Shown here: one piece after another, positions 33,520-38,006 of the stretch
How the letters are laid out: each line of letters starts with the position of its first letter
How positions within the stretch are numbered: position 1 is the first letter of the stretch
Source: Bacteroidia bacterium
GTDB taxonomy: Bacteria; Bacteroidota; Bacteroidia; B-17B0; Aurantibacillaceae
NCBI GenBank assembly: GCA_026415195.1
Contig: JAOAHO010000001.1
Span: 1 to 64,000 of the forward strand
Length of the DNA stretch: 64,000 nt
Reading direction: 5' to 3'
Translations under genes and position numbers: made by a program
Notes under the pieces: generated by a model
The model's database searches: none
What the model was told of the DNA's origin: nothing
Seen by the model: only the letters and a program-made list of their open reading frames with translations

Positions 33520-35316
33520 TTACACTGCCCTTTTATGATAGATTTTCAAAAGTCGTTTTTTGAATAATTTTTTTAATACCTGGATATCTTTAAATGTGAG
33601 ATCGGAATAGATGAGTTGATGGTCGTTTATTTTATAATCGAACACCCGATCCACCATTTCGTGAATGCTGACTTCATCGGGATTTTTTAATGAACGGGAT
33701 GCAGCTTCCACACTGTCGGCCAGCATGACGATGGCTGTTTCTTTATTGAAAGGCAAGGGCCCTGGATAACGAAATTTCTTTTCATCAACATCTGGATGAT
33801 TTTTTTGATACTCCTTAAAAAAATACTCTACCCGGGTGGTGCCATGGTGAGTCCTGATAAAATCAATTACCTGTTCCGGTAATCCGTGCGCATAGGCCAG
33901 TTCTATTCCGTCCTTCACGTGGGAGATGATAATTTCTGCCGCTTTTTCGGGAGGGATGTCGTTTTTAAATAATTCATCTTCATTTCGGTTTTCAATAAAA
34001 AACTCCGGATGATAAATTTTGCCAATGTCATGATATAATGCACCAACCCGAACAAGCAGGGTATTGGCATTCAGGTGATACGCGCCTTCTTCTGCCATGG
34101 CCGAAACCTGTATGGTATGGTGAAATGTGCCTGGCACTTGTTCCGAAAGTTGCCTGAGCAATGGATGTCGGAGGTCGGTGAGTTCCATCAGGCGGAAATC
34201 GGAAACCATGCCAAAGATGCGCTCAGCAAGGTAGATAAACCCCGGAGTCAGGAAAAGTGATCCGCCCCCCAGAGCAAATGGAAAATATGAAGAATAATAC
34301 TTCAGGCTTGTTGTGTCTCCGGTAATGATATGATATAGTACATAGAAAAAAGATGAAAGCATAAAATAAAAGAGCCCCAGAAATGAAAGTTTTTTTCTGT
34401 TGTCGAAAAGTTTGTAAGCATAAATGCAAAAGAGCCCGGAGGGAACAAACACTGCCATAAATTCAATCTTGTCGGGAAAGAACCACATCAGGATTAATGA
34501 TTGTGCCCAATAAAACAATCCCGAAAGATGAGGATTAAAAAACACCAATGCTATCAGCGGAAACATCAGCAATGGATAGGCTTGTAACATTAAATTCCAT
34601 TTATGAAAAAGCATAAAGCCGGAGATGGCCACTCCCATCAAAAAATAAATAAAAACAATTTTCTTTTCATCAGTATATAACTCCGGTTGAAAATTCCTGA
34701 GATATGTAAGAAAAATCAGCAAAAGGAAAAAAGCAAAACAATAAACGGTTGCTCTGTAGGTAAATGAAGAATTTTTTTTGAAATAGTGATAGATGGCACG
34801 GTTGATGACATCACGATCGGAACGTGTGAGTCCGGTTGTTCGGTATTCCCCGTCGGAATTAGGTAATTCAGGATTGATTTGTGCATCAGGTATAAGAAAT
34901 TCTATTTCCCTGAGCGTATCAGGAAAAAGATTTTGTTTGTTTTTTGAAGTGTCGTGAATCGGATAGATTTCGCTTTTAGATTTTTTATACGCTAAATTCT
35001 TCCATCGGATTATCAGTTGGTTCGGCAAATTTTGATACTCCTTTTCTGAAATATAATCGGGCGAATGAAGGGATGCGTTGGTATCTTTCATCAGGTAGCC
35101 CGTGTTATGATGGCGTGTAGAAAATTCGGGGTTATTGAATAAAGAATATTCCTTTTTTTTAAAAGGATATTTCCATACAGCATCAAAATTTCCGATGTAA
35201 TAAAAATCGGCACTAAAGTCAGGCAGGTAGAACAATATGGCAATCGGAGAGGCAAGTGCTGCCAGAATTTTTATAAGAAAGCTTTTGTATTTAAAACCTG
35301 AGAATGTACCTTTCAT
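33520..35316 (-). CDS. PgpH-like membrane HD phosphohydrolase
   Basis: 598 residues. One N-terminal helix (about 12-32), an extracytoplasmic segment of some 150 residues, then about seven helices (180-375) and a cytoplasmic HD domain: HHTIQVSAMAEEGAYHLNANTLLVRVGALYHDIGK with the HD metal pair and IIISHVKDGIELA. This is the layout of 7TM-HD proteins such as PgpH, which hydrolyse c-di-AMP; the extracytoplasmic domain is shorter than in Listeria PgpH. C-di-AMP controls osmotic and wall homeostasis, in keeping with the coupling (ATGA overlap) to the ddl-type gene upstream. Confidence 0.9.
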   Translation of the reverse strand: MKGTFSGFKYKSFLIKILAALASPIAILFYLPDFSADFYYIGNFDAVWKYPFKKKEYSLFNNPEFSTRHHNTGYLMKDTNASLHSPDYISEKEYQNLPNQLIIRWKNLAYKKSKSEIYPIHDTSKNKQNLFPDTLREIEFLIPDAQINPELPNSDGEYRTTGLTRSDRDVINRAIYHYFKKNSSFTYRATVYCFAFFLLLIFLTYLRNFQPELYTDEKKIVFIYFLMGVAISGFMLFHKWNLMLQAYPLLMFPLIALVFFNPHLSGLFYWAQSLILMWFFPDKIEFMAVFVPSGLFCIYAYKLFDNRKKLSFLGLFYFMLSSFFYVLYHIITGDTTSLKYYSSYFPFALGGGSLFLTPGFIYLAERIFGMVSDFRLMELTDLRHPLLRQLSEQVPGTFHHTIQVSAMAEEGAYHLNANTLLVRVGALYHDIGKIYHPEFFIENRNEDELFKNDIPPEKAAEIIISHVKDGIELAYAHGLPEQVIDFIRTHHGTTRVEYFFKEYQKNHPDVDEKKFRYPGPLPFNKETAIVMLADSVEAASRSLKNPDEVSIHEMVDRVFDYKINDHQLIYSDLTFKDIQVLKKLFKKRLLKIYHKRAV

Positions 35317-38006
35317 GCGCTTACGGCCGATGATTTTTTTATTCCGTATTGCAAGATGAGGTCGATGAATTCTACGGGTTTATAGTTTTGAATGGCAGCC
35401 TGGTGAAAAATACATGTGGCCGGGGTCATACCGGGCAGGGAATTGATTTCCACAATGATTACTTCAGCCCTGCTTCCGTAAATTCTCACAAAGGCATCTA
35501 TCCTGCAATAGCCTTCCACATCAAGAATTTCTGCAGTTTTTTGGAGTACGTTTTTAACCTGATTGCTGATATTTTGCCTTAGGACCGGGTCGGGTGAGTA
35601 ACGTGCCGGCGTGATGTTAAGCCCTTCTCCGGCCAGGAACTTTTCTTCCAACGAAAGTACATCTCCTGTTGCAACGGCTTCAGAAGCTTCGAATACTTCG
35701 TAGATCCGATTTCCCTTTTCATCGAATTTAGTGAGCATGCCACCTGTTATTTCCAGAAAATGATCGGCACCTTTAGGACCTATCAGTTCTTCAATCAATA
35801 CTTCTTCTTTCAACGGAAATTCCTCGTTGGGTTTTAAGTTCAATCCCTTTTTGGCAATTTCGGGAATTTCCGGATTATCACGGAATGCAGTGTTCAGATA
35901 AAGAGACATTTCTTCTTTGTTCTTGATTTTTTTTACGGCGCTGCTGCAGCCATCGTCGGGGGGTTTGGCAATAAGCGGGTAGGGGAAGAATTTTTCAATG
36001 TGTTTGAGGGTTTCCTCCGGATGGCTGAGCCAATCTTTTTTCTTAATCAACAAATGTTGGGCCACCAGAATTCCATGCTGCTTCAGAATTTCGTTGGTGT
36101 GGTATTTATGAATGGTTATGGATGAACTTTTTGGCCCAGAACCGTTGTAGGGAATTCCACGTTGTTCGAGTTCGGTTTGGACTTCACCGTTTTCTCCCGG
36201 GCTGCCGTGTAGGCCGATAAATACTATGTCGCACAGGTTTTTCAGTTCATCGTAGGTGATTTCTTTGGGAGGAGAAAGGCTACCGGGGGTTGAAAATAAA
36301 GCCGTAATTTCTTTGGCTTCATTAAGGATTTGTATCAGGATTTTTGGCTTTTTGTAATTTAAAACCGAGTCGCGTATGTCGTCGGCATTATCTTTAAGCA
36401 ACAAGGGGAGTGGGATAATAAACAACCGATGTGCATAAGGTTTTCCGGTCAGAAAAATAGGAAATGCTTCGTATTTTTCGGAGGAAGAAAGTTTTTCAAA
36501 TACATTCCTTCCGCTTTCCACGGAAATGTGTCGTTCAGACGAATATCCGCCCAACAACACCGCAACTTTTTGCTTTCGGGAACCGGCTTTTTTCAACAAC
36601 CGAATATGATGATCCAACCTGTTAAAAAGATTTTTTGTATTTAAACTCCCCGGTTTTTTTTGCAGGTTCTTTTTTAAAGAGGTATGAATGATGAAAGTGA
36701 TAAGTTCGGAAGGATTTAAGCCAATTTCAGCTGCCTGATGAAAGAAAAAACTTGAAGGCATCATTCCGGAAGTGGTATTGGGGTCGTTCAGGAATATACG
36801 TCCGTCAGGAAGATAAAAACCATCAATTCGGGCATAAACATCAAACTGAAATTCAGCAAAAAGTCGCTCGCACTCCCTTCGTATTTTTTGAATTTCTGCT
36901 TCGTCCAGTTCCATGGGAGTTACTTTCCTTGACAGTCCGGGTAGGTATTTGGATCGGTAGTCATAGTAAATATCTCCTTTAAGTATCTCAGTCGGAGGCA
37001 GGGCAACGGGAGTTCCGTCGGGTTTTTCAAAAACAATGCAACTGAATTCCCTGCCTCCGAGAAATTCTTCCACAATCACTTCGCTTTCCGACATGGTTCC
37101 CTGAAGAAGAATTTCATCTGAACGGAAAGTCCAATCGTTCAGGGATTGAAGGCATTCATCGGGACTATGGATGACGCGGAAATGCCCTTCCTCTTCTACA
37201 AAAGCAGGAAATGCAATTCCATTGCGGATGTCGGTGAGATTTAGAATAAATTTTATTTTTTCACTGTCGGAAAGCAGATGCCATTCCTTCTTTCGGATTT
37301 TTTTTACGAAGAAGGCACGTTCCAAAGCATCTTCAAAGGTTTTTGCATCATCGGTTCTCACCACGCTCACCCCAATGCTCGAACCTTGGTTGGCGGGTTT
37401 TACAACAAAAGGCAAACCGCATAACATTTTGCATTCAGCCAACCAATCGGTATGTTGGTCTTTACTAAAGTAGGCCTGACGTGTAAAAATTTTTTGTTTG
37501 GGTACATGAAAATTTTTTTCTTTCATCCATTTTTTCTGAACCGACTTGTTCATGCCGAAAGCCGATGGCAAGATCCCGGAACCGGTATAGGGGATGTTGT
37601 AATATTCCAACAGTCCCTGAATGGTTCCGTCTTCTCCGCCCTCACCATGTAAGCATAAAAAAACCAGGTCAAAGTAATTTGTAAATTCCTGAGGATGAAT
37701 AATTCTTCCAACTTTCGTCAGGATTTCTTTATGCTTTTCGGGTGAGGTGTTTAAATATTCAATGTAATATTGAAAAGGGGAGTGGGACGGAATATCCTCG
37801 GCAGGAGGAAAAAAATCGCGAATGGTTCCTTTGTAGATATGTTTCCAATCTAGTATACAAAAGTTCCCAAAGCTGTCGATGAAAACCGGTATGGGTTCGA
37901 ATAAGGATTTGTTGAGATTATCATATACGGTTCTGCCACCGGCAAACGAAACCTCCCTTTCCCTGGACTTTCCTCCGAAAAAAATACCAAGACGTATTTT
38001 ATCCAT
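35313..38006 (-). CDS. ddl: Tandem-fused D-alanine-D-alanine ligase, two ATP-grasp modules
   Basis: 897 residues, twice the normal Ddl. Module 1 (1-450): GGKSREREVSFAGG, HGEGGEDGTIQG, YTGSG, VVKPANQGSSIGVS, EEFLGGREFSC, YYDYRSKY, and RIDGF; its metal motif is NDPNTTSGMMP where ExNTxPG is usual, so Glu is Asp408. Module 2 (478-897): GGYSSERHISVESG, HGSPGENGEVQ (Asp to Asn606), YNGSG, AKPPDDGCSSAV, RIDAF, and a canonical EINSLPGMTP (E853, N855); its substrate loop is altered (no YDYxxKY). Ddl joins two D-Ala for peptidoglycan. Each module lacks something the other keeps. Start ATG 38006. Confidence 0.9.
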   Translation of the reverse strand: MDKIRLGIFFGGKSREREVSFAGGRTVYDNLNKSLFEPIPVFIDSFGNFCILDWKHIYKGTIRDFFPPAEDIPSHSPFQYYIEYLNTSPEKHKEILTKVGRIIHPQEFTNYFDLVFLCLHGEGGEDGTIQGLLEYYNIPYTGSGILPSAFGMNKSVQKKWMKEKNFHVPKQKIFTRQAYFSKDQHTDWLAECKMLCGLPFVVKPANQGSSIGVSVVRTDDAKTFEDALERAFFVKKIRKKEWHLLSDSEKIKFILNLTDIRNGIAFPAFVEEEGHFRVIHSPDECLQSLNDWTFRSDEILLQGTMSESEVIVEEFLGGREFSCIVFEKPDGTPVALPPTEILKGDIYYDYRSKYLPGLSRKVTPMELDEAEIQKIRRECERLFAEFQFDVYARIDGFYLPDGRIFLNDPNTTSGMMPSSFFFHQAAEIGLNPSELITFIIHTSLKKNLQKKPGSLNTKNLFNRLDHHIRLLKKAGSRKQKVAVLLGGYSSERHISVESGRNVFEKLSSSEKYEAFPIFLTGKPYAHRLFIIPLPLLLKDNADDIRDSVLNYKKPKILIQILNEAKEITALFSTPGSLSPPKEITYDELKNLCDIVFIGLHGSPGENGEVQTELEQRGIPYNGSGPKSSSITIHKYHTNEILKQHGILVAQHLLIKKKDWLSHPEETLKHIEKFFPYPLIAKPPDDGCSSAVKKIKNKEEMSLYLNTAFRDNPEIPEIAKKGLNLKPNEEFPLKEEVLIEELIGPKGADHFLEITGGMLTKFDEKGNRIYEVFEASEAVATGDVLSLEEKFLAGEGLNITPARYSPDPVLRQNISNQVKNVLQKTAEILDVEGYCRIDAFVRIYGSRAEVIIVEINSLPGMTPATCIFHQAAIQNYKPVEFIDLILQYGIKKSSAVSA

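Follow-up and report, generated by a model that had tools for sequence, protein, structure and literature searches.

A doubled D-alanine--D-alanine ligase in the place of the ordinary enzyme among Bacteroidia

D-alanine--D-alanine ligase (Ddl), which makes D-Ala-D-Ala, an essential building block of the cell wall, is an essential enzyme and a target of D-cycloserine. In its ordinary form, exemplified by Escherichia coli DdlA and DdlB (TIGR01205; PF01820 plus PF07478), the enzyme is a homodimer of single-module chains with a glutamate at metal-ligand position 270. In plants, DDL is described as two putative DDL enzymes joined in a fusion, present throughout the plant lineage (PMC9954125), and the Ddl of moss is reported to be closest to the Fibrobacteres-Chlorobi-Bacteroidetes group (PMC9434261). 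Knock-out of the fused gene in moss abolishes normal chloroplast division. In lactic acid bacteria, the residue at position 216 goes with the activity of the ligase, Phe giving depsipeptide and Tyr dipeptide activity (PMC5996685). The F-type D-Ala-D-Lac ligases of this kind, such as Leuconostoc LmDdl2 (1ehi) and those of lactobacilli, are single-module proteins with Phe in place of Tyr216. A Ddl is also contained within a larger wall-enzyme fusion, the MurC-Ddl bifunctional protein (NF011171), while the large chain of carbamoyl phosphate synthetase (CarB) carries two ATP-grasp modules per chain as diverged halves.

A stretch of 64,000 nucleotides from a Bacteroidia bacterium (GCA_026415195.1, contig JAOAHO010000001.1, positions 1 to 64,000; hereafter the window) encodes two Ddl modules in a single chain, laid out as follows.

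35313..38006, (-) strand: fused two-module Ddl, 897 aa, ATG start, range including the stop codon
36651..38006, (-) strand: module 1, residues 1-452
36585..36650, (-) strand: linker between the modules, residues 453-474, weakly conserved (mean identity 0.41)
35316..36584, (-) strand: module 2, residues 475-897, a complete Ddl fold

Two N-terminal and two C-terminal Ddl domains are recognized in this open reading frame (Pfam PF01820, E 2.6e-48; PF07478, E 5.6e-56), which bears out the first-pass annotation of the window in its claim of two Ddl modules in one protein. The whole chain passes the curated cut-offs of both families (PF01820, 164 bits against 34.6; PF07478, 190 against 24) and, at 380 bits, that of NCBIfam TIGR01205 (245.65); when cut apart, the modules reach 232.5 (module 1) and 153.4 (module 2), to be compared with the same TIGR01205 cut-off. 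The fusion shares with ordinary Ddl the fold, the ligand set of module 1 and the metabolic slot, and the two forms exclude each other in genomes; ordinary Ddl, however, lacks the signature of module 2. The MurC-Ddl model gives 171 bits against a cut-off of 1015, the partner there being MurC and not a second Ddl. CarB is matched by Foldseek (1bxr_A, TMq 0.46), but it has other substrates and extra domains and superposes weakly (rmsd 15.8). The plant proteins of Physcomitrium and Arabidopsis likewise contain two DDL units, but are eukaryotic and plastid-linked. No description of a bacterial double Ddl was found in the open-licence literature, although this does not prove its absence. A two-DDL fusion is already published for plants, and we regard the bacterial protein as a new form of Ddl.

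The reading that we favour, at a probability of roughly 0.7, is that the fusion acts as the sole detected D-alanine--D-alanine ligase of its host, with module 1 as the catalytic unit working with an Asp and module 2 as a full-fold partner. Module 1 would then be the dipeptide ligase making D-Ala-D-Ala, with Asp408 as one of its metal ligands. Active-site residues are given here in the numbering of E. coli DdlB. The main alignment comprises 46 fusions, and residue checks drew on additional rows for 18 divergent fusions, four truncated forms and 29 single Ddl. Two features set module 1 apart.

36783..36785, (-) strand: codon of Asp408, the Asp at metal-ligand position Glu270, invariant in module 1
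37095..37307, (-) strand: module-1-specific insert in the central domain, residues 234-304, retained also in the truncated family f68

Module 1 keeps E15, H63, K97, S150, S151, E180, E187, K215, Y216, R255, D257, N272, G276 and S281. The E15/S150/Y216 triad is present in 46/46 fusions, as are K97, E187, K215, R255 and S281, and all of them recur in the divergent rows; K144 is kept in 45 of the 46, with Arg in the other and one further Arg among the divergent rows. The metal ligands D257 and N272 are retained, while position 270 is always Asp (46/46 fusions, 18/18 divergent fusions and 4/4 truncated forms) and is Glu in every one of the 29 single Ddl rows. Alignment to DdlB thus confirms both peculiarities reported for this module at the outset, Asp408 at the metal-Glu site and Ser413 at Pro275 (SG for PG). 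Catalysis could be lowered by the change from Glu to Asp, a point against the main reading; the truncated family f68, described below, suggests that Asp in this position works.

Module 2 departs from ordinary Ddl at other positions, and its principal features are these.

35946..35948, (-) strand: codon of Cys687 (DdlB Ser150), placed by alignment
35415..35417, (-) strand: codon of Thr864 (DdlB Ser281), placed by alignment
35598..35663, (-) strand: substrate (omega) loop, residues 782-803, with Lys789 (K215) and Phe790 (Y216)
36231..36434, (-) strand: helical insert of the N-domain, residues 525-592, with the invariant motif LKDNADDI; a remnant persists in the truncated family f68

The ATP and metal ligands K97, K144, E180, E187, D257, E270 and N272 of module 2 are found in 46/46 fusions and 18/18 divergent fusions, and E15, H63, K215, R255 and G276 are kept as well. 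The alignment agrees with the ExN metal motif and LPGM read earlier from the sequence; the GENG named beside them is present in this copy but is no family trait, the consensus being GEDG (D606 in at least 90% of rows). The substrate loop had been taken to be lacking. It is in fact present as a diverged loop, DVLSLEEKFLAGEGLNITPAR, with Lys215 and Phe216 invariant, and like a mobile loop it has an AlphaFold pLDDT below 50 at residues 780-795. Three changes had been overlooked, namely Ser150 to Cys687, Tyr216 to Phe790 and Ser281 to Thr864, so that the D-Ala-D-Ala substrate residues S150, Y216 and S281 are not kept; Cys, Phe and Thr stand there in 46/46 aligned fusions and, without exception, in the 18 divergent ones. 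The 29 single Ddl rows all have Ser150 and Ser281, and Tyr216 is found in all except the F-type row of Latilactobacillus. Since the divergent fusions agree and the single Ddl rows differ, Asp270 of module 1 and Cys150/Phe216/Thr281 of module 2 are fixed, ancient states and not decay. The complementary losses first proposed for the modules are not supported, as module 1 differs at one ligand and module 2 keeps its ATP and metal set together with the loop.

Because its ATP/Mg residues never vary, module 2 very probably still binds nucleotide, and it would either tune module 1 or run a secondary reaction. The same strict conservation argues that it is not a pure scaffold. Mean identity is 0.72 for module 2 and 0.71 for module 1, so the two are equally conserved, which exceeds the needs of a mere scaffold and counts as a point against the main reading.

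A full-length AlphaFold2 model, built from the 46-row alignment, has a pLDDT of 85.6 and a pTM of 0.86, the latter lending confidence to the relative placing of the modules. The model makes a built-in pseudo-dimer plausible, in which module 2 would hold module 1 as the subunits of the Ddl homodimer hold each other, but within one chain. The best fold match of module 1 is DdlA (3q1k, Z 35.1). Module 2 matches the Leuconostoc D-Ala:D-Lac ligase (1ehi, Z 38.5) and the Thermus Ddl (6u1d, Z 38.4) equally well, a tie on account of which the former match was rejected as proof of a D-Lac ligase.

This match nevertheless belongs to the case for two catalytic modules with different acceptors, the Tyr-type module 1 making D-Ala-D-Ala and the Phe-type module 2 making D-Ala-D-Lac or another D-Ala-D-X. 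All ATP/Mg ligands, E15, K215 and R255 are present in module 2 of all fusions, and its Phe occupies the position that sets depsipeptide activity (PMC5996685), as in the plasmid-borne Latilactobacillus ligase. The resemblance to the F-type enzymes ends at Phe216, however, since the Latilactobacillus row retains the Ser150 and Ser281 that module 2 does not. In the tree, module 2 clusters with module 1 and apart from the F-type row, and both f68 and the slot-swapped relatives described below survive without module 2. On balance, two acceptors are unlikely, and an altered specificity is possible for module 2 rather than for the whole protein.

The truncated family f68 bears most directly on the division of labour. 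In 4/4 of its genomes (G260, G308, G368 and G404; loci L133, L134, L157 and L158), which are 6.4-8.0 Mb in size and 99-100% complete, the protein has 553-560 aa and is the only PF01820 protein. Its module 1 is complete, with all ligands and Asp270, and module 2 is reduced to a degenerate N-domain stub from which the ATP-grasp half and all catalytic residues have gone. The tree nests f68 inside module 1, near Rhodocytophaga, so that the loss of module 2 is secondary. The idea that this loss accompanies that of the PASTA partner was rejected, as f68 genomes retain PASTA proteins elsewhere. Module 1 of f68 has evolved faster (stem 0.82), and 18 of 113 otherwise near-invariant module-1 positions are altered in all four proteins, among them Ser413, which is again Pro. 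These changes, which count against the main reading, hint at a coupling of the modules: where the fusion is intact, module 1 may need module 2. As f68 lives on module 1 and a stub, it is most likely module 1 that acts as the ligase, with module 2 as a conserved partner or a second site.

The original proposal that the modules take part in one cycle of catalysis or jointly build a composite site, so that each fills the gap of the other, draws on the fixed, lineage-wide deviations at catalytic positions in both modules, and the return of Pro at 413 where module 2 was lost does suggest coupling. However, the sole missing ligand of module 1 is a conservative exchange of Glu for Asp, and the f68 protein keeps this Asp in the company of no module-2 catalytic residue. 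In known Ddl structures, moreover, the ATP-grasp site is contained in a single chain. A composite site is consequently very improbable.

The neighbours of the fusion in the window differ from those of the other loci described below. Upstream are a tRNA-Arg gene and clpB, and downstream is the following gene.

33520..35316, (-) strand: PgpH-like 7TM-HD phosphohydrolase gene, with 7TM-7TMR_HD and HD domains, overlapping the end of the fusion by 4 bp

The proposed cotranslation with a c-di-AMP-type phosphohydrolase is borne out insofar as the 4-bp overlap is real here, but the pairing is not conserved across loci. A conserved pairing was rejected, as a motif scan finds a PgpH-like gene adjoining the fusion only in this window; in L054 one HD gene lies close to the fusion, on the opposite strand. 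In the PgpH-like protein of the window (33520-35316), Pfam detected no 7TMR-HDED extracellular domain. Of 80 named loci, 40 have a gene for a membrane PASTA protein downstream of the fusion (as the second gene in three cases) and 29 have rdgB upstream. In one genome (G378, L136:1442-5041), double Ddl, a predicted membrane helix and PASTA domains form one chain of 1200 aa, which would link a cytoplasmic ligase to a wall-binding module outside the cell. An extra N-terminal domain in a 1389-aa frame of G387 was rejected, this being a mere open reading frame with no non-Ddl Pfam match.

In two families, the fusion and an ordinary Ddl alternate in the same operon slot (loci L210-L213). Family f61 has fusion-PASTA-T9SS-rluD in G156 against single Ddl-PASTA-T9SS-rluD in G393, and family f53 has fusion-PASTA-T9SS-rhodanese-TPR in G211 against single Ddl-PASTA-T9SS-rhodanese-TPR in G121. 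With an ordinary Ddl in the identical slot, the fusion very probably does the job of Ddl. Taken with f68, the swap shows that the place of Ddl is filled by the fusion and that the ATP-grasp site of module 2 is dispensable for this.

The fusion is no local oddity but a class-restricted form of Ddl that replaces the ordinary enzyme in its carriers. Within the family, every one of the 24 other genomes sampled carries a homologous fusion, at 54-63% identity (in three it is cut by contig ends); elsewhere in the class Bacteroidia, 7 of 16 genomes do so. At least 532 stretches code for a relative, and carriers by genome name include Pontibacter, Hymenobacter, Rufibacter, Adhaeribacter, Rhodocytophaga and many Bacteroidota MAGs. 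About 220 genomes from other classes of the phylum contained no full-length fusion and single Ddl only. In a class-wide sample, a Ddl N-domain occurs in 145 Bacteroidia genomes, of which 73, that of the window included, have the fusion and 72 a single Ddl, three of the latter showing two weak pieces that were counted as one split N-domain. Exactly two N-domains occur in 71 of the 73 fusion genomes and three pieces of broken genes in the other two. One fusion genome also has a 336-aa single Ddl (G013:C52:1-1400, L048); as this gene sits on a 6-kb contig, it may be contamination or a true second copy.

In the genome of the window, the only PF01820 matches are the two domains of the fusion, although a copy may have been missed as the assembly is 93.45% complete; the agreement of 72 other fusion genomes supports its status as sole Ddl. 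Other PF07478 matches (contigs C35, C116, C44 and C68) were rejected as a second Ddl, being AccC, CarB, RimK-like and PurK proteins. A search for a separate normal ddl, suggested together with the first-pass annotation, thus found none in this assembly, and the class-wide exclusivity favours a role in the wall. MurF, the next enzyme after Ddl, is present in this genome. Two MurF homologues were seen (G000:C32:33204-34439 and C24:6871-8148), one over the MurF cut-off and the other within a frame of 831 aa, possibly a fusion of MurF with alanine racemase.

These data also bear on the idea that the protein has nothing to do with cell-wall Ddl function and acts as a ligase on a different substrate. 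Both modules have unusual residues, and a changed function has been suggested for the double DDL of Arabidopsis (discussed in PMC9954125). Still, no other Ddl accompanies the fusion in the carriers examined, and it takes the same operon slot, beside the PASTA protein, as the ordinary Ddl of sister genomes. We therefore give a different substrate hardly any credence.

A maximum-likelihood tree places module 1 and module 2 each in one group (100/100) and splits the two together from all sampled single Ddl (99/94), which fits one duplication followed by fusion. The stems of the two modules are long (0.95 and 1.52), so that long-branch attraction is possible. To judge from these sequences, the fusion probably arose once in Bacteroidia. 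A bolder combined proposal, that module 2 is an active or sensing Cys150/Phe216/Thr281 site for D-Ala-D-X, strictly selected across Bacteroidia, and that the plant plastid DDL descends from the bacterial fusion, seems rather doubtful as a whole.

About half of the sampled Bacteroidia thus appear to use a doubled Ddl, of which one half is ligase-like and the other a strictly conserved, altered copy. The doubled enzyme and a sister lineage without the second site would make a natural experiment on the role of the Ddl dimer partner, and the bacterial fusion is a concrete candidate ancestor of the fused DDL in plant plastids.
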